From NCBI GenBank assembly GCA_018397035.1, contig JAGTQV010000001.1, positions 20,755 through 74,718 of the forward strand: 53,964 nt of DNA, read 5' to 3'. A program made the translations under genes and the position numbers. The notes below the pieces were generated by a model. That model saw only the letters and a list, made by a program, of their open reading frames with translations, searched no databases and was not told where the DNA came from. The stretch is from Candidatus Bathyarchaeota archaeon. GTDB taxonomy: Archaea; Thermoproteota; Bathyarchaeia; 40CM-2-53-6; RBG-13-38-9. This document shows positions 2,987 through 20,588 of this stretch, in pieces. Numbering within the stretch: the stretch's first letter is position 1; each line of letters opens with the position of its first letter.

Positions 2987-3496
2987 TCATGAGGACCTGT
3001 AGAACTGGCCGAGTATGTCCCTCTTCTCCATTGCTCTATTGCAGTAGTGGCAACGGAGACGTATCGGTTCCACTTCTGTAACATGAAAGAGGGAGTCTAC
3101 CGGCTCCTTTTTGGATATGCAGGCTGGGTTGCTGCATCTCACTATGTCCCTGATGTCTCGGGGCAAGTTGACCGTCTTCTTCTCGACAACATCATACTCT
3201 TTAATGATGTTTATTGTCGCGTTTGGCGAGATTAGGGCTATCTTGTTAACGTCTTCAGGTCTAAGTTCCCAACCTTCGATCTTGACTATGTCTTTCTTTC
3301 CGATTAGCTTACTCGGAACATTCATCACAACCGCCACGGTGTTGCTCTCTTTTCCTGTGATATTGAGGATCTTCAGTACATCAAGAGCGTAGCCTGATGA
3401 TATGTGGTCTATAACCGTTCCGTTCCGTATCTTCTTTACGTAGAGCTCAGCTTTACTTGACCTCGACTTTTCACTCCTGAACGCCAAGTTGTGCAA
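2987..3496 (-). CDS. pyrI: Aspartate carbamoyltransferase regulatory chain
   Basis: The 169-residue chain carries the PyrI hallmarks: VKKIRNGTVIDHISSGYALDVL near the N terminus (allosteric nucleotide-binding domain), the ELRPEDVNKIALISPNATINII block, and a C-terminal zinc site with four cysteines (CSNPAC about 113-118 and CHYC about 149-152). It binds CTP/ATP and tunes the PyrB catalytic trimer in the first committed step of pyrimidine synthesis. About 18 residues precede the usual PyrI start, so translation may begin later than the ATG at 3496. Its partner pyrB is not adjacent: it is 1.4 kb away on the opposite strand, with metX between. Confidence 0.95.
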   Translation of the reverse strand: MHNLAFRSEKSRSSKAELYVKKIRNGTVIDHISSGYALDVLKILNITGKESNTVAVVMNVPSKLIGKKDIVKIEGWELRPEDVNKIALISPNATINIIKEYDVVEKKTVNLPRDIRDIVRCSNPACISKKEPVDSLFHVTEVEPIRLRCHYCNRAMEKRDILGQFYRSS

Positions 3497-3551
3497 GGAA
3501 GTATTTGATTCTGATCCTTTGAACTCGCTCTCCTAGTGAACTCAAGCGAAC

Positions 3552-4775
3552 CTAGCTTAACGGTTGGGTCCCAATCTGAAAGTCACCCAACTTCTCCTCT
3601 TGTGCGTGGGCTAGGTAGTATGAGATTATGCGAGACATCTTCTCACCCTCAACCAAGAACGCATCGTGACCATAGGTTGAAGGCATCTCGTAGTACACGA
3701 CTTCCTTGTTCGCTGCTCTTAAGGCCCTAACCAGCTCCTCAGACTCTGATGGTGGGTAAAGCCAGTCTGACGTGAACGATATGACGAGAAACTTTGATTT
3801 CGAGATTCTAAGCGCTGCTTCAAGTGATCCGAAGCCACTGGATATGTCAAAGTAATCTATCGCCTTAGAGATGTAGAGGTATGAGTTAGCGTCAAACCTC
3901 TTGGTGAAGGCCTCCCCTTTATGATGGATGTAACTCTCAACTTGGAATTCTGGTTCAAGACTGAAGCTGAGCTTCTGGTTCTGTTGCAGCCTCCTCCCGA
4001 ACTTCAGACGTAGAGTTGTGTCGCTGAGATATGTTATGTGCCCTATCATTCTCGCGATAGCTAAGCCGTCTACAGGAGGCTCTTTCCCGTAGTAGTCTCC
4101 ATGCCTCCAGTTAGGGTCACTCATGATAGCCCTGCGGCCTACTTCGTGGAAGGCAATGTTCTGTGGGGACTGCCTGGCTGCAGTAGCTATTGGAATGCAA
4201 AAGGCTGCGCTCTCTGGATATGTGACTGCCCACTGGAGGGCTTGCATGCCGGCCATCGATCCCCCTGCGACAGCTGTCAACTGTGAGATGCCCAGATGAT
4301 CGAGTAGCTCTTTCTGGGCCCTGACCATGTCTTTTATCGTGACCATCGGGAAGCGGAGGCCGTAAGGCTTCCCTGTCTTTGGATCTATTGAGCTGGGTCC
4401 AGTTGACCCGCTACAGCCACCTATCACATTGGCGCATATGATGAGGTATCTGTCGGTATCGAAAGCCTTCCCGGGGCCGACCATATTGTCCCACCAGCCT
4501 GGCTTAGGGTCTGTTCTGTGGTGTCTTCCAGCGACGTGGGCATCTCCTGAAAGGGCATGAAAGATGAGTATGGCGTTACTTCTTGTGGAGTTCAGTCTTC
4601 CATATGTCTCGTAGGCTAAAGTTATCGGGCCGAGTCTTCTTCCACTCTCAAGAGTCATCTCATCTGGTGGATGCGCAAAGGTGTAGTAACGAGTTTTGAC
4701 TATTCCAACTGATCCTGATTCCATTAAGTCTGCCTCGCATGGCTTACTCTTTTCTATGGAAATCTGGAGGTTCAT
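3552..4775 (-). CDS. metX: Homoserine O-acetyltransferase
   Basis: The alpha/beta-hydrolase fold protein of 407 residues transfers an acyl group from acyl-CoA to homoserine for methionine synthesis. The catalytic triad can be read: nucleophile serine in GGSMAGMQALQW, aspartate in SDWLYPP and histidine in YGHDAFLVE. The family substrate-side block ALSGDAHVAGRH and the GCSGSTGPSS loop are also present. An N-terminal tail of about 17 residues may be extra; a second ATG (MESGSVG) at 4724 would give the more usual length. Whether acetyl- or succinyl-CoA is used cannot be told here. It stands alone between pyrI and pyrB and is divergent from pyrB. Confidence 0.93.
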   Translation of the reverse strand: MNLQISIEKSKPCEADLMESGSVGIVKTRYYTFAHPPDEMTLESGRRLGPITLAYETYGRLNSTRSNAILIFHALSGDAHVAGRHHRTDPKPGWWDNMVGPGKAFDTDRYLIICANVIGGCSGSTGPSSIDPKTGKPYGLRFPMVTIKDMVRAQKELLDHLGISQLTAVAGGSMAGMQALQWAVTYPESAAFCIPIATAARQSPQNIAFHEVGRRAIMSDPNWRHGDYYGKEPPVDGLAIARMIGHITYLSDTTLRLKFGRRLQQNQKLSFSLEPEFQVESYIHHKGEAFTKRFDANSYLYISKAIDYFDISSGFGSLEAALRISKSKFLVISFTSDWLYPPSESEELVRALRAANKEVVYYEMPSTYGHDAFLVEGEKMSRIISYYLAHAQEEKLGDFQIGTQPLS

Positions 4776-4933
4776 CTGGATACTCAGTCCGGCTGTTAGC
4801 TTGGCTGGTTTGAAATCCAGTATTCCTGGTTTAAACTATTTTTGAGTAGAATATTCCAATAGGAATTTCCGTTTGCTATTTCTTACACCTCAGACAGTCT
4901 ATAACCTGAGAACAGGAGCGCGAGGTCTCACGG

Positions 4934-5857
4934 TTGAACCTTGAGGGAAGAGACATCATCTCGATAAGAGACTTCACACGGTCTGAACTCGACTATATGC
5001 TGGCCGTTGCAGATCAGATGGAACCCCTAGCTAGGAAAGGCTCAAACATGCTCAGCGGAAAGATAATGGCAACTCTCTTCTTTGAACCTAGCACAAGGAC
5101 GAAACTGAGTTTTGAGTCTGCGATGTACCGGCTAGGAGGGTCCAGTGTGGGATTTGCTGACCCGGGCTCCTCTTCAGTACAGAAGGGTGAGAACCTTTCA
5201 GATACCGTTAGAGTTGTAGAGAACTATGCAGATGTCCTGGTTGTTAGGCATCCCTTGGAGGGGGCTTCCCGCTTAGCAGGAGAAGTCGCTGAAGTCCCTG
5301 TAATAAACGCCGGCTCAGGAGCCGAGGAGCACCCAACACAGGCGATCCTCGACATATATACTATGAGGCGTGAGTTCGGCTCCATCGATGGTCTAAAGGT
5401 TGCGCTGGTCGGCGATCTCAGGTACGGCAGGACTGTCCACTCTCTCGCATACGCGCTGTCCCTCTACAGGAATATCAAACTGTTTCTTGTCTCTCCGGAA
5501 CTTCTTAGAATGCGAAGTGAAGTCTTGGAGGATATCAGTCGTGGTGTCGACTTTGAGGAAGAGAGTGATCTGAGAAAGATCTTGGGTGAAGTTGATGTCA
5601 TATACATGACTCGTATACAAAAGGAGAGGTTTGCGGATCCAGCTGAATATGAGGCTGTGAAAGGTTCCTACAGACTCACTCAAGATGAACTGAAGGGAGC
5701 AAAGAGAGAAGCGATAGTAATGCATCCCCTGCCAAGAGTTGATGAGATAGATCCTAGTGTCGACGCCACCCAACATGCCAAGTATTTCAAACAGGTCTGG
5801 TATGGCCTGCTGGTGAGGATGGCGATACTGGGACTTGTGATTGGCTCGATCAGGTAG
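4934..5857 (+). CDS. pyrB: Aspartate carbamoyltransferase catalytic chain
   Basis: The 307-residue enzyme joins carbamoyl phosphate and aspartate to make carbamoyl-aspartate. The carbamoyl-phosphate loop EPSTRTKLSFE sits near residues 51-61, followed by the HP block (VVRHPLEG), the EEHPTQAILD motif, LVGDLRYGRTVHSLAYAL and the late HPLPRVDEI motif that contacts substrate. Length matches the family. The start is a TTG at 4934, chosen because MNLEGRDIISIRDF is the family N terminus and no in-frame ATG lies just upstream. The gene ends 23 bp from the convergent NrdD-like gene. It is unlinked from pyrI, which is unusual for archaea where pyrB-pyrI is normally one operon. Confidence 0.95.
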   Translation: MNLEGRDIISIRDFTRSELDYMLAVADQMEPLARKGSNMLSGKIMATLFFEPSTRTKLSFESAMYRLGGSSVGFADPGSSSVQKGENLSDTVRVVENYADVLVVRHPLEGASRLAGEVAEVPVINAGSGAEEHPTQAILDIYTMRREFGSIDGLKVALVGDLRYGRTVHSLAYALSLYRNIKLFLVSPELLRMRSEVLEDISRGVDFEEESDLRKILGEVDVIYMTRIQKERFADPAEYEAVKGSYRLTQDELKGAKREAIVMHPLPRVDEIDPSVDATQHAKYFKQVWYGLLVRMAILGLVIGSIR

Positions 5858-5880: not shown

Positions 5881-8151
5881 CTACCCTATAGAGTACAGTG
5901 TTCTGCTCTCGACATCTCTCCTTTTCGCCTCAGACCACAGTCCGAGGGGCGCATAAACTGCCGACGACCTTCCAAGCAAAGAAAGATCTGTTGAGCCGCA
6001 CCCTGGACAGGTTGACTTCGTGCCAAGAAAAGTCTTGTTACATCTTCCACAATGAGAGCAGGCAGTCGTGTAAGTGAAGAAGAGCAGTCTCTCACTCAAG
6101 ACCTGCTCTGTAAGGCTCAGCAGTCTTCTGGGATCTTGGCTTGTCGGAGCAAGACAGATAGAGGCGAGGTGTCCTCCAGGAGTGACTGCTTGAAACCTGC
6201 CTTCCAACAGTATCCTCTCCTGAAGACCTATCTTTGACGAGAGCGGTACAGTGAATAAGTCGGTGTAGTACGGATAGTCCCTTACTCCTTCCGTCACCGC
6301 TTGCCCTGGACCGAATCTTGCAACATCAAGCCTCGCAAGTCTGGAGGAGGCTTCGTCCTGTGGTCTCTGGGCCACGACAAGACGTAGACCCAACTTCTTG
6401 CACGCTAAGTCCACGAAGTCGCCTATTGATCTTGTTATCTTCAAGGCGAATTCGACAGCCTTCTCACTCTCGCTTATGGAAGAACCCATAAAAGCCCTAG
6501 CCGCTTCATCTAAGCCTAGAAGGCTTATCGCATAGGTCGCATTACGCTCAATGAAATAGGGCCGTCCAACGCCGCCATGCAAGAACGGCAGAAGAGACTG
6601 ACTCAGCCTTTCCTTCAGAGCTTCACTCTTCCGCTGAAAAGCCTCAGCCGTAAGGCTAAGTCTCGTCTCGAGTATGCTCTGGAATCTGTCAATCTTCCTA
6701 TGTGCTTCTTGAGCTATTCGGGGTAGATTCAGAAATATGCTGCCGGCATTTCCAGTCCTCATACAGTCATCCTCCCAGTTTCCAGTCCAAGAGTCGTCAA
6801 TCCTCAGGCCTGTCGCTGTGTAGACCGTCTTCTCCCCGCCCTCTAAGTTAGCGAAATACGGGAGGAAAGTCTTCGCGGCGAATTGGTGGATCTTTAACAT
6901 CAAGCTTTCAGACTTCCTAGTCCTCGATTGGAGGTCTCTGACTTTGAATATTAGACGTGGATTGAGGAGAAGCTTCTCCCCGGACGCTTCTATCGCAGCA
7001 TCTATTGAGGCCTCAAGTATATCATCCGCTGCCTCAGCGTAATCAGCATAGTTACCAGCGTATTGACCATCAGGTCCTACAGCCTTCGTATCCCTCAGGA
7101 AACCTGGGATAGCAAGCTCAAAACTTAAGGAGAGGCCGCTTCCAGGAACGTAGGAATAGACATCTTGGCGGATATTAGTGAAGAAGTGGTAAAGCTGCTC
7201 TTTCAACTGGTCTTTTGGAGTCTTAATCGCATACGGAGCCAGGAATACGTTGAACATGTCGAAACATTGCTCATTCGCAACTTCAGGTCTCGCGAGGTGG
7301 TAGACTTGCTCGGCCATCGCTAAGGCACCTTGAAATGTCTTCGGCGGCTTCTTGGTCGGCAGGCCGTTCTCCAAAAAGAACCTCAGGTCATGTATGATCT
7401 CACTAGGCTTGAGTATCCACTCTCCGATGTTGTCGATGTGCATATCTCCCGAGAGATGCGCGTCAGCAATGTTTCTAGGCAGGGAATTCAGGAGGACATA
7501 TTCCTCCATAACAGCTGCTCCAGCAGCCTCCTTAACAGCCTGGACATCAAGCATCTTTTCGCTTGAGTGTCTAAGTAGTTCTGAGACATCGTGCACAGGC
7601 ATACCTAGTCGCGTGAGTCTATGCCTGTAGTCCTCAAGCCTCTTCTCAATCAGTATTGCATTGATGAATTCCCTTATCAGGGGTGCAGTCAAGTAGCTGG
7701 TTCTCAGTCTAAGAAGACGTTCCTCAGCTTCTGCTGCGATCTCTTGAGCTAGCTCATACGGGACTCCTGCTTCGCTGATGAGTGAGTTAGCAATCTTCTC
7801 CCTCGCGAATTCTTCAAGAGATAGTCTAGACGTTCTTACGTAGAGCTTTCCCCTTTTCGCTGCAACATATTCCTCAAGGTCTCTCTCAAAGTTGACGATT
7901 ATCTCCCCGAGTTCTGTTATAGTGTACTTCTTTGTATTCTTGTCAAGTGTGACTAGGCGAGTTCCGGTGACGCTCTTCAAGTGATAGACGAATTTCCCGG
8001 CGTCTCTTATGGGGTCCAGTCCCAGAGCAGCCATTATCTCTGTGTATGGTAGGGGACCCCTAGATTTCAGGAGTTTTAGAATACGCAATCGTAGAGGTGA
8101 CGATGCGGCACCAAGAATGTCGACCCCATATTTCTCAAAGGACGCGGACAA
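5881..8151 (-). CDS. wHTH + ATP-cone + NrdD-like protein, radical site lost
   Basis: The 756-residue protein has three parts. Residues 1-90 form an ArsR-like winged helix (PLRLRILKLLKSRGPL, then GKFVYHLKSV). Residues 103-190 resemble an ATP-cone, the nucleotide-sensing domain of ribonucleotide reductases. Residues 195-756 follow class III reductase NrdD: GDMHIDNIGEW, DLRFFLENGL, FNVFLAPYA, RTGNAGSIFLNLPRIA and a C-terminal zinc site (Cys698, 701, 704, 715, 718). Family members end with a glycyl-radical motif of the form RVxGY; here it is RSSAVY, so Ala731 replaces the radical glycine. The segment KPSEIIHDLR (248-257) sits where I recall a catalytic cysteine, and none is present. It is probably not a working reductase; a dNTP-sensing regulator is an inference. 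The TTG start at 8151 follows an AAGGGG ribosome site. No nrdG is nearby. Confidence 0.8.
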   Translation of the reverse strand: MSASFEKYGVDILGAASSPLRLRILKLLKSRGPLPYTEIMAALGLDPIRDAGKFVYHLKSVTGTRLVTLDKNTKKYTITELGEIIVNFERDLEEYVAAKRGKLYVRTSRLSLEEFAREKIANSLISEAGVPYELAQEIAAEAEERLLRLRTSYLTAPLIREFINAILIEKRLEDYRHRLTRLGMPVHDVSELLRHSSEKMLDVQAVKEAAGAAVMEEYVLLNSLPRNIADAHLSGDMHIDNIGEWILKPSEIIHDLRFFLENGLPTKKPPKTFQGALAMAEQVYHLARPEVANEQCFDMFNVFLAPYAIKTPKDQLKEQLYHFFTNIRQDVYSYVPGSGLSLSFELAIPGFLRDTKAVGPDGQYAGNYADYAEAADDILEASIDAAIEASGEKLLLNPRLIFKVRDLQSRTRKSESLMLKIHQFAAKTFLPYFANLEGGEKTVYTATGLRIDDSWTGNWEDDCMRTGNAGSIFLNLPRIAQEAHRKIDRFQSILETRLSLTAEAFQRKSEALKERLSQSLLPFLHGGVGRPYFIERNATYAISLLGLDEAARAFMGSSISESEKAVEFALKITRSIGDFVDLACKKLGLRLVVAQRPQDEASSRLARLDVARFGPGQAVTEGVRDYPYYTDLFTVPLSSKIGLQERILLEGRFQAVTPGGHLASICLAPTSQDPRRLLSLTEQVLSERLLFFTYTTACSHCGRCNKTFLGTKSTCPGCGSTDLSLLGRSSAVYAPLGLWSEAKRRDVESRTLYSIG

Positions 8152-8202
8152 TACTTTGCCCCTTACAAGTCCATGTCTAGCTTCTGTTTAAAAGAATAGA
8201 CA

Positions 8203-8241
8203 GTTCATTTAAGTATAGTACATATTACTCAACTGAGTAAT
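8203..8241 (-). promoter_or_regulatory. Promoter and palindromic operator of the NrdD-like gene
   Basis: A perfect inverted repeat ATTACTCA-AC-TGAGTAAT occupies 8224-8241. On the minus strand it lies just upstream of an AT-rich TATA-like stretch (ACTATACTTAAATG, about 8203-8216), which is about 55 bp before the TTG start at 8151. A dyad next to the TATA/BRE position is a typical archaeal regulator site. Because the gene encodes its own winged helix, autoregulation is a reasonable inference. The rest of 8242-8440 shows no gene that I can support. Confidence 0.6.
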
Positions 8242-17948: not shown

Positions 17949-20588
17949 TCATTTAATGGCTGCTGAAATCGCTGGATTAAGATTCTTGAACTTGGAGATG
18001 TACTCTACCCTTTCCTTTTTGAGAGATTGAACATAGTAGGAGACTTGCTCTGGAGAGTAGTATCTGCTGAGATCGAACTTCTTCATGTCCACGCCTGGAA
18101 CACTGGCAGGTATCTTTACGCCGAAGTAGGCGTCATCAGTCCACTCAATCTCGCCTCGAGCTATACCCCTTATCACAGCTGCCATCTCGGGAATCTCCAC
18201 CCTGACCACCTTCTGTTTAACTATCTTGGATCCGTCTTCAGCCCTGAGTATTATCTCGCCCACTCCACCAGTATTAAGCTGGTAGAACTGTATCTTGTCT
18301 TCATGCCGCTTCACGAACTCGTAGAAGCGATTGCCCTCCTCAGCCTCATCACCAATTATGAACGGGTTTGTACCTACCTCACGAACAGACTCACCTGCCC
18401 TTCTGGGGTCGCTGCCAGAGGTTTCGACTGACTCCCCCAGCATGAAGGCGGCTGCAGCCTGTTCAGCCGTAAGCTTAGAAGCGATCGGGACTACTGTGTT
18501 TCTGCGCGTTATGAATATTATTATCAGCCCATCCATTTCATTTACTGGAGGCAGGTTCACTGTGGGGCTTCGATACTCCCCGAAGTCATCCCTCTGCATT
18601 ATCCCCCTCGCATTTCCCGTCAGAGTCTCGTCACCAAAGTACACGTTACCTAAGTAGTCTACCATCACGTTTTCGAAGATCGCGTCCGGCTTTGTGATGG
18701 CGTTATAGATCAGCGGCTGTATCTCCGGCGTCACCCCTTCAGTCTTCAGGTAGAAGCCTTTCTCGGTCCCGAACGCTGAGCAGTCCGGACGCAGGAAGAC
18801 AACATCATCCTGAATTATCTCAATCCTCTCCCCCTCGGCGGTCAAGCCGTGATTATGACAGGTATGCGTCGTTTTGCCGGTGGCAGTAAGGCCGAAGATC
18901 AGCATGCCGTAACGCCGTACCTTACCATCTCGGCATCTGGCACGCAGGATCTTGGCGCCGGCATGCAAACCGAGCATTCCATGTTGCTTCGCCATCCACA
19001 TCGCCATACGCAGAAAGCCTTTCTTTGCTTCTCCATAGTAGTCGGTTCCAAGGACGTAGGTCACCCCGACTTCAGGGAAGACGAGTATCTGCCTGTCTTT
19101 CTCCTGCCATTCAGGGATGTACACCAGTTGAAGGATAGGTTCGCTCGGTCTAGATCTAGGGGGGAAGAGAGTTTGACTCACCATGTAGGCTAAGCGAACC
19201 ATCTCCTTCCTTTGGACGGATACGTACAGCGTGCAGTGAGGGGTGAATACTGGGTTATCGCCCATGGTACGCTCTACAGCCACAAGGGGGGCCAGCTCAA
19301 GGTACTTATGGACCTCCTTCACAGTTTGAGGGAGATTCCTAAGTATCTCCCTCTGACGTGGATTCAGGTTTCTCTGTTGCACCTTAGAACTACCGACATA
19401 TACCGTCAGGTTAGCGCTCCTGTTCTTCACTGTAGATGTGAAGTTGTAGTTGCCGAAGGTTGTCTTTGTACCATGCTCCTCAGCCATAGCTCTTACTTGT
19501 TTCTCATCGAGAAAGTTGACGTTCGACCGTGATCTCAGTGAATCCACGACCGACTTTATCTCTTGGAGATTCACCAGCGGCGCAGTTATCTCTGCTGCCT
19601 TGCTTGGACTTGGCTCCAGATACTCCCTGAATAAGACTATTTCATGTAATCTCCTCTGAACTTCAAAGATGGGTTTTGCCGTGTTTATGCTATAGCAAGC
19701 GACGAACTGAAGTATCTCCTTCAAGAAACTCATAAACTGCTCCCTCTTTTCCTCATTGGCTGCTGAGAGATCCAGCCCTGAAGCTAGGCTGCCAAGGAGA
19801 GCTAGAGCCTCTTGGTTGCTTAGACGCTTATCAATCGTCGAATTCTCCTCGTCAGGTTGCAGGAAGAATATCAACTTTATTCTAGTCGTATCAACGAACT
19901 TCTCGCTCCCACCTATCCACCAGGGATCTAGCATGAAATGATCATCTTCACGCTGACACCTGCGGAGCAGTTCTTGCAGTCGCGGGCTTATTTTGGAAAG
20001 CTCTGTCTTAAGATAGAATTTGCGCTCGCAGGCCTGCGTCGAGAGCCGTCCCTTCTCTCCACCCAGCTGCTCAACAGCGAACAAGTCGTTCGAGTGTATC
20101 CGCGCACGCTCCAGATCCAAGAGAAGGAAGGCATGGGTGGATTTCCCGCTGCCACTGCGGCCTGTTATCATTATCCCTTCACCGTTTACGTCGACCAAGG
20201 CGCCCCGCAGGAGGCTCACACGCTTCTGATCTAACGATACGTCCATCACTATCCTAAGTCCGAGATCCCTCACCGCTTCGTAGCTTTCAGGATTGAAGGC
20301 GACCCCGGTCTTCGTTTCGGAATGGTAGTAGACACCTGTCTCAACCCTTTGCGCTTGACTTATCGCATAAACGATGCCGTGCGGCCTCAGATTGTGATCG
20401 TAAGCTGCAGGGTACCAGTTCTCTTTCCAGAAAGAATCTAGTTTCGCATCGTTCGTGCGAAGCTGAACAACTATCCCGTTTATATTGACGTTCCAGACGT
20501 AGAGCGAGTCGTAACCTAGGTAACGTTCTGCCTGTTTGGTCAGTTCCTTTATTCTTCTCAGTTGGACTTCACTGATTGTCTGCGGCAA
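17949..20588 (-). CDS. pckA: ATP-type PEP carboxykinase fused to a second HPrK-like kinase domain
   Basis: The 879-residue protein has two P-loop kinase domains. The C-terminal domain (about 430-879) follows ATP-dependent PckA: YYGEAKKG with substrate lysine (about 522), metal histidine in LHAGAKI (542), P-loop GLTATGKTT (566-574), kinase-2 pair DD (594-595), GFYLKTEGV, FENVMVDYLGN, arginine in NARG (661) and LNTGGVGE. These sites fit conversion of oxaloacetate to PEP. The N-terminal domain (about 120-330) has its own P-loop GRSGSGKST (143-151), SNDLF in place of the DD strand, and KFYLKTELSKISPRLQEL, which repeats the C-terminal FYLKTE block. It looks like an internal duplication of the HPr kinase/PEPCK fold. 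Usual PckA length is about 530-540, so some 340 residues are extra. Confidence 0.85.
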   Translation of the reverse strand: MPQTISEVQLRRIKELTKQAERYLGYDSLYVWNVNINGIVVQLRTNDAKLDSFWKENWYPAAYDHNLRPHGIVYAISQAQRVETGVYYHSETKTGVAFNPESYEAVRDLGLRIVMDVSLDQKRVSLLRGALVDVNGEGIMITGRSGSGKSTHAFLLLDLERARIHSNDLFAVEQLGGEKGRLSTQACERKFYLKTELSKISPRLQELLRRCQREDDHFMLDPWWIGGSEKFVDTTRIKLIFFLQPDEENSTIDKRLSNQEALALLGSLASGLDLSAANEEKREQFMSFLKEILQFVACYSINTAKPIFEVQRRLHEIVLFREYLEPSPSKAAEITAPLVNLQEIKSVVDSLRSRSNVNFLDEKQVRAMAEEHGTKTTFGNYNFTSTVKNRSANLTVYVGSSKVQQRNLNPRQREILRNLPQTVKEVHKYLELAPLVAVERTMGDNPVFTPHCTLYVSVQRKEMVRLAYMVSQTLFPPRSRPSEPILQLVYIPEWQEKDRQILVFPEVGVTYVLGTDYYGEAKKGFLRMAMWMAKQHGMLGLHAGAKILRARCRDGKVRRYGMLIFGLTATGKTTHTCHNHGLTAEGERIEIIQDDVVFLRPDCSAFGTEKGFYLKTEGVTPEIQPLIYNAITKPDAIFENVMVDYLGNVYFGDETLTGNARGIMQRDDFGEYRSPTVNLPPVNEMDGLIIIFITRRNTVVPIASKLTAEQAAAAFMLGESVETSGSDPRRAGESVREVGTNPFIIGDEAEEGNRFYEFVKRHEDKIQFYQLNTGGVGEIILRAEDGSKIVKQKVVRVEIPEMAAVIRGIARGEIEWTDDAYFGVKIPASVPGVDMKKFDLSRYYSPEQVSYYVQSLKKERVEYISKFKNLNPAISAAIK

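Follow-up and report, generated by a model that had tools for sequence, protein, structure and literature searches.

A winged-helix protein with a catalytically dead class III reductase body as a likely regulator of ribonucleotide reductase genes in archaea

Results

Domain architecture of gene A

The stretch of DNA analyzed here (the window; 53,964 nucleotides of Candidatus Bathyarchaeota archaeon, G000:C45:20755-74718, where G codes denote sampled genomes and f codes their taxonomic families) contains a gene whose product combines a winged helix, an ATP-cone and a body resembling the class III ribonucleotide reductase (RNR) NrdD. In the following, A designates the family of this protein, B an intact class III type having an ATP-cone with VRTS and an RITGYY loop, and D intact class III relatives with an RVVGY loop. 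The features of the gene and its promoter are:

5881-8151, minus strand: gene A, winged helix, ATP-cone and catalytically dead NrdD body; 756 amino acids, TTG start
7882-8118, minus strand: winged helix-turn-helix, residues 12-90; PF24038 in 24/24 members, profile match to 6j05
7582-7848, minus strand: ATP-cone, residues 102-190; PF03477 in 24/24 members, highest conservation within the family (mean identity 0.63)
5893-7524, minus strand: NrdD body, residues 210-753; PF13597, 232 bits
7399-7401, minus strand: Glu251 at the C79-type cysteine position; cysteine in 0/96 A and 30/30 other NrdD sequences
6805-6807, minus strand: Leu449 at the thiyl-radical cysteine position; cysteine in 12/96 A and 30/30 other NrdD sequences
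5998-6051, minus strand: zinc site C701, C704, C715, C718; invariant in 24 aligned members
5959-5961, minus strand: Ala731 at the glycyl-radical position; RSSAVY aligned with R[IV]xGY of intact NrdD
8186-8203, minus strand: candidate operator CTGTCTATTCTTTTAAAC in the A promoter; 18 bp, no binding data

In Pfam searches, the winged helix of the window protein matched PF24038 (DUF7347) with 30 bits, above the cut-off, and HTH_20 and HTH_5 more weakly; the ATP-cone PF03477 was matched at residues 104-175 with 22 bits, below the cut-off. PF24038, PF03477 and PF13597 were each matched in all 24 aligned A members, HTH_5 in 14 of them. A profile built from these 24 members and compared to the PDB retrieved NrdD structures and the ArsR structure 6j05 (E=0.0028). 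The window protein scored 246.9 bits against the NrdD equivalog TIGR02487, below the cut-off of 326.35, and TIGR00244, the NrdR model comprising zinc ribbon and ATP-cone, gave no match to A. AlphaFold predictions for A reached a mean pLDDT of only 49 and 51, with alignments of three or four sequences. A first-pass annotation had described the product of 5881-8151 as an ArsR-like winged helix fused to an ATP-cone and a full NrdD-like body; the coordinates held, with the strand, which it had not given, being minus, and so did the architecture, by Pfam in 24/24 members.

Elsewhere in the window, positions 17949-20588 (minus strand) encode an 879-residue PEP-carboxykinase-like protein with the P-loop segments GRSGSGKSTH and GLTATGKTTH, noted by eye only.

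Catalytic residues of the NrdD body

Residues at the catalytic positions were counted in 96 distinct A members and 30 other NrdD sequences. The cysteine of the C79 type, present in each of the latter, occurs in no A member; in the window protein its site is covered by the segment KPSEII, the aligned residue being Glu251 with Ser250 as its neighbor. The thiyl cysteine is retained in 12 A members only. Across family A the loop of the radical glycine is missing or altered, and many members in f11, f20 and f25 stop before or within it. The first-pass annotation had read alanine for the radical glycine (RSSAVY in place of RVxGY), KPSEII at a catalytic cysteine, and an intact zinc site arguing against decay. 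All three claims held, with Ala731 and Glu251 identified by alignment, the four zinc-site cysteines kept and the architecture conserved; the third loss, Leu449, was absent from its list. The case that would have refuted its proposal, orthologs with an intact RVxGY motif and a nearby nrdG, was sought and not found; the absence of the C79 cysteine from all 96 clade members stands on the same side, and in the searched genomes no lone A gene was accompanied by an NrdG-like activase. By model, residue and domain tests we infer from sequence alone that A is neither a functional NrdD nor an NrdR.

A proteins of the f3 lineage (e.g., L020 and L026) carry a glycine in the radical-glycine column (KYAGR, RYSGR) and several of them also a cysteine in the thiyl column; the C79 cysteine is absent. 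Reversion, chance or another role are all possible.

Distribution and constraint of family A

Of 300 genomes sampled from the phylum, 132 contain a match to A at E<=1e-60. A quick tree, some branches of which are long, placed A in a single, fully supported clade whose sister group is the intact B type. The tested f25 genomes, which we infer to be Nitrosopumilaceae-like, and G276 of f57 carry archaeal amoA and therefore represent ammonia oxidizers; A is thus present in amoA-bearing genomes. Mean pairwise identity within A was highest in the ATP-cone (0.63), followed by the winged helix (0.49) and the body (0.32). Both intact types, by contrast, have a body more conserved than the cone (0.56 vs 0.50 in B, 0.66 vs 0.55 in D). 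The constraint on A, as displayed by this identity pattern, is the reverse of that on real NrdD, selection having shifted off the catalytic body and onto the sensor and DNA-binding head. With an open frame and an architecture conserved across dozens of genomes, A represents a family rather than a decaying copy, and a chance frame or decay was ruled out on the same grounds. One stop inside the A match occurs in each of two genomes.

Contig JAUQYT010000156.1 (L031), titled Njordarchaeum guaymaensis, encodes an A protein at 73% identity, and its neighbors, pyrB, an FAD oxidoreductase, purM, purE, purF and purL, are those of the window family. The contig is likely misbinned or mistitled.

NrdR exceeded the cut-off in 2 of 34 A-carrying genomes tested, both in f11, and A thus mostly stands where NrdR is absent. 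The two f11 loci with a true NrdR in addition to A are L264 (G042:C8) and L265 (G165), the NrdR of G042 adjoining nrdD. NrdG gave no match above the cut-off in 24 genomes, the model being poor for archaeal activases. Weak radical-SAM matches adjoin the intact nrdD in G017, G019, G042 and G058, and none was found near A in f1.

Genes neighboring A

In nine families the gene immediately 3' of A encodes an RNR, which is either class II (nrdJ) or class III (nrdD). Among the loci read, nrdD follows directly on the same strand in f7, f16, f20, f21 and f43, and nrdJ in f9, f25 and f57, with gaps of 134-878 nt between A and the RNR frame; in f22 the order A then nrdD was deduced from search coordinates. 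The A-nrdJ order was present in all nine f25 genomes read, and A lies before nrdJ in amoA-bearing genomes. In several families A does not adjoin any RNR gene. The sole NRDD match in G000 and G003 is A itself, and both genomes possess nrdJ. The nrdD frames at L074:5931-9242 and L073:278-3427 are unusually built, with 1050-1104 amino acids and NRDD matches in separate pieces, possibly due to inteins or large inserts.

In about half of 76 loci, belonging to many families, pyrB and/or pyrI are located downstream of A, and their orientation is almost always convergent, either relative to A or between the two genes; in the window, this aspartate carbamoyltransferase region spans 2987-5857. Since pyrB is convergent, it lacks A's promoter. 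In G038, G058, G112, G159 and G292 nrdD is placed between A and pyrB, and purine genes occur near A in the window and three relatives. The A-pyrBI order is old and has no explanation so far. An ancestral order A-nrdD-pyrBI, inferred here, is possible; if nrdD was subsequently lost in lineages using nrdJ, the arrangement in the window would follow.

Promoter elements shared by A and RNR genes

An element near-identical to the 18-bp candidate operator is located 5' of nrdJ at G000:C45:85559-85576, outside the window, and in f1 the A promoter (window 8186-8203) shares the pattern YTGTYTAWWCTYTTAAWC with that of nrdJ. All nine exact matches of the f1 pattern in nine f1 genomes lie upstream of A (five) or nrdJ (four). 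With a matrix derived from A sites only, nrdJ of G000, G005, G001 and G008 scored highest among ~220 upstream regions, the only exceptions being divergent genes on the same intergenic stretch; in G003 and G007 nrdJ did not rank with this matrix. Across 61 genomes the 17-mer ACTTTAATTTTTTAAAC has four exact occurrences. Two of them precede A, in G009 and G038 (families f2 and f7), and two precede nrdD, in G049 and G058 (f16). ACTCTAATTTTTTWA of f5 has three occurrences, two ahead of A, in G012 and G017, and one ahead of nrdD, again in G017. A near-unique element common to A and an RNR gene is therewith present in three lineages. The shared patterns were spotted by eye and written down after some sites had been seen, and only then tested. 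Mismatch-tolerant matches remained at the control level, and it is the specificity of exact matches that is informative.

No element general to all lineages could be established, as the shared elements differ between lineages. A single RNR-promoter consensus was rejected: with a matrix trained on nrdD, nrdJ promoters showed no general enrichment over 1465 background promoters. The elements near TATA boxes may possibly be read by a different factor. The first-pass annotation had pointed to an upstream dyad for a test of DNA binding; the analysis gave no support to this dyad as the operator. The dyad ATTACTCAACTGAGTAAT exists at 8224-8241, but no copy with <=2 mismatches was found in any relative's locus, and its near-matches in the genome equal the control count. 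We infer, without binding data, that the 18-bp element at 8186-8203 is the likelier operator. GATCYAA repeats were likewise dismissed as an A operator of ammonia oxidizers, being strong in L252 and L253 and weak or absent in other related genomes.

Further candidate motifs were observed in single promoters. GATCYAA clusters lie just 5' of A at L252:2573-2660 and L253:3697-3820, with seven and four sites in 200 nt, respectively, and in L013 (G016) the A promoter contains the dyad CCACTCTAAAAAATTAGAGTGG, whose half-site ACTCTAA resembles the f5 element.

Discussion

The domain make-up of A, the loss of its catalytic residues, its inverted conservation, its linkage to RNR genes and the promoter elements shared with them are shown by the data presented here. 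The kept sensor, the DNA-binding head and the adjacency or shared promoter signals together indicate that A probably switches an RNR gene. We therefore consider it likely that A is a DNA-binding regulator of RNR genes that arose from a class III reductase and lacks the catalytic residues, i.e., an archaeal analogue of NrdR, its DNA and nucleotide binding being inferred. The winged helix would bind a site in the promoter of A itself and also at nrdJ or nrdD, depending on which RNR the genome uses. The ATP-cone is predicted to sense ATP versus dATP and to set the oligomeric state, and the dead NrdD body would serve as a dimerization scaffold and perhaps, at the old specificity site, as a second dNTP sensor. 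Repression at high dATP appears the likeliest sign of regulation, solely by analogy with bacterial NrdR; this sign and the oligomer switch are as much inferred as the binding of DNA and nucleotides. The first-pass annotation had already suggested a 'dNTP-sensing transcription regulator made from a dead reductase'. All tests that could be run support this proposal, with nucleotide and DNA binding remaining inferences, and RNR genes as targets are supported by evidence beyond its reach, the downstream RNR genes and the shared promoter elements.

Several points speak against a regulator: there are no binding data, the elements are lineage-specific, several families have no RNR gene adjacent to A, f3 members possess the glycine and partially the thiyl cysteine, and NrdR occurs alongside A in two f11 genomes. 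A conserved pyrBI neighbor may also point to a wider nucleotide regulon. A bolder reading would have a single early conversion, in a major archaeal phylum including the ammonia oxidizers, of an RNR into a regulator of class II and class III RNR genes that reads dNTPs by cone and dead body and has replaced NrdR; the present evidence leaves us undecided between accepting and rejecting it.

Other explanations have to be weighed against the regulator. A might be a pseudo-subunit: it would pair with an active RNR by way of the ATP-cone or of the NrdD dimer face and modulate the activity of that enzyme, with the winged helix providing a protein contact and A having no role in transcription control. 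The position directly upstream of an RNR gene in nine families and the retention of a full NrdD body would fit. However, A persists where class II NrdJ, a much less similar protein, is the only RNR, the winged helix is better conserved than the body, and promoter elements are common to A and RNR genes, which renders a pseudo-subunit unlikely. We regard it as similarly improbable that A controls nucleotide biosynthesis broadly, with pyrBI and perhaps pur genes in its regulon and RNR as one target among them. This would be in line with the location of pyrB/pyrI 3' of A, seen in many families and in roughly half of the loci read, and with the nearby purine genes in the window and three relatives, but exact elements were found only upstream of A and RNR genes.

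There is even less support for A as a catalyst of another kind that works with the barrel but no glycyl radical. The protein has retained its fold and zinc site, and the f3 lineage some radical-site residues; yet no part of A changes faster than the barrel, no member has the C79 cysteine and many have lost the glycine loop, making this very unlikely. Finally, a decaying nrdD copy could account for the lost active-site residues and for the single stop inside the match in two genomes, but this is practically excluded by the full-length architecture and the strong constraint on winged helix and ATP-cone across the phylum.

In bacteria, transcriptional control of RNR is known through NrdR, which is described as an ATP/dATP switch that binds boxes at RNR promoters and as rare in archaea (PMC9110341, PMC12176259). 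If A indeed regulates RNR genes, it would fill the place of the missing RNR regulator in a large archaeal phylum to which ammonia oxidizers central to the nitrogen cycle belong, and would provide a clear case in which the allosteric machinery of an essential enzyme has outlived catalysis to become a gene switch. Because of their NRDD domain, A genes may easily receive the name 'anaerobic ribonucleotide reductase', which would imply the wrong physiology for aerobes. In the open-access literature searched, which excluded most subscription papers and bioRxiv, no NrdD pseudoenzyme or HTH-NrdD fusion was described, and the words 'inactive', 'winged' and 'DNA-binding' occur nowhere in a large RNR phylogeny (PMC9531940). 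As most subscription papers and bioRxiv preprints were omitted, the novelty of A is provisional.

Compared to known systems, A draws on three. Its N-terminal 90 residues resemble archaeal ArsR-like regulators (PF24038 DUF7347, HTH_20, HTH_5); where these carry a metal site or a short dimer helix, A carries an ATP-cone and an RNR-derived body. With class III NrdD it shares the ATP-cone, the ten-stranded barrel family PF13597 and the C-terminal zinc site, its closest relatives being the archaeal ATP-cone NrdD of the sister clade, with a VRTS cone and an RITGYY loop. In contrast to NrdD, A has an N-terminal winged helix, lacks the C79 cysteine and mostly also the thiyl cysteine and the radical glycine, and scores 247 bits, below the equivalog cut-off of 326 bits. 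NrdR uses a zinc ribbon where the DNA-binding part of A is an N-terminal winged helix, and has no counterpart to the 550-residue NrdD body; kinship between the two is limited to the ATP-cone. Like NrdR, however, A joins a DNA-binding part to an ATP-cone, is associated with more than one class of RNR genes and has candidate sites near the transcription start, with autoregulation being inferred.
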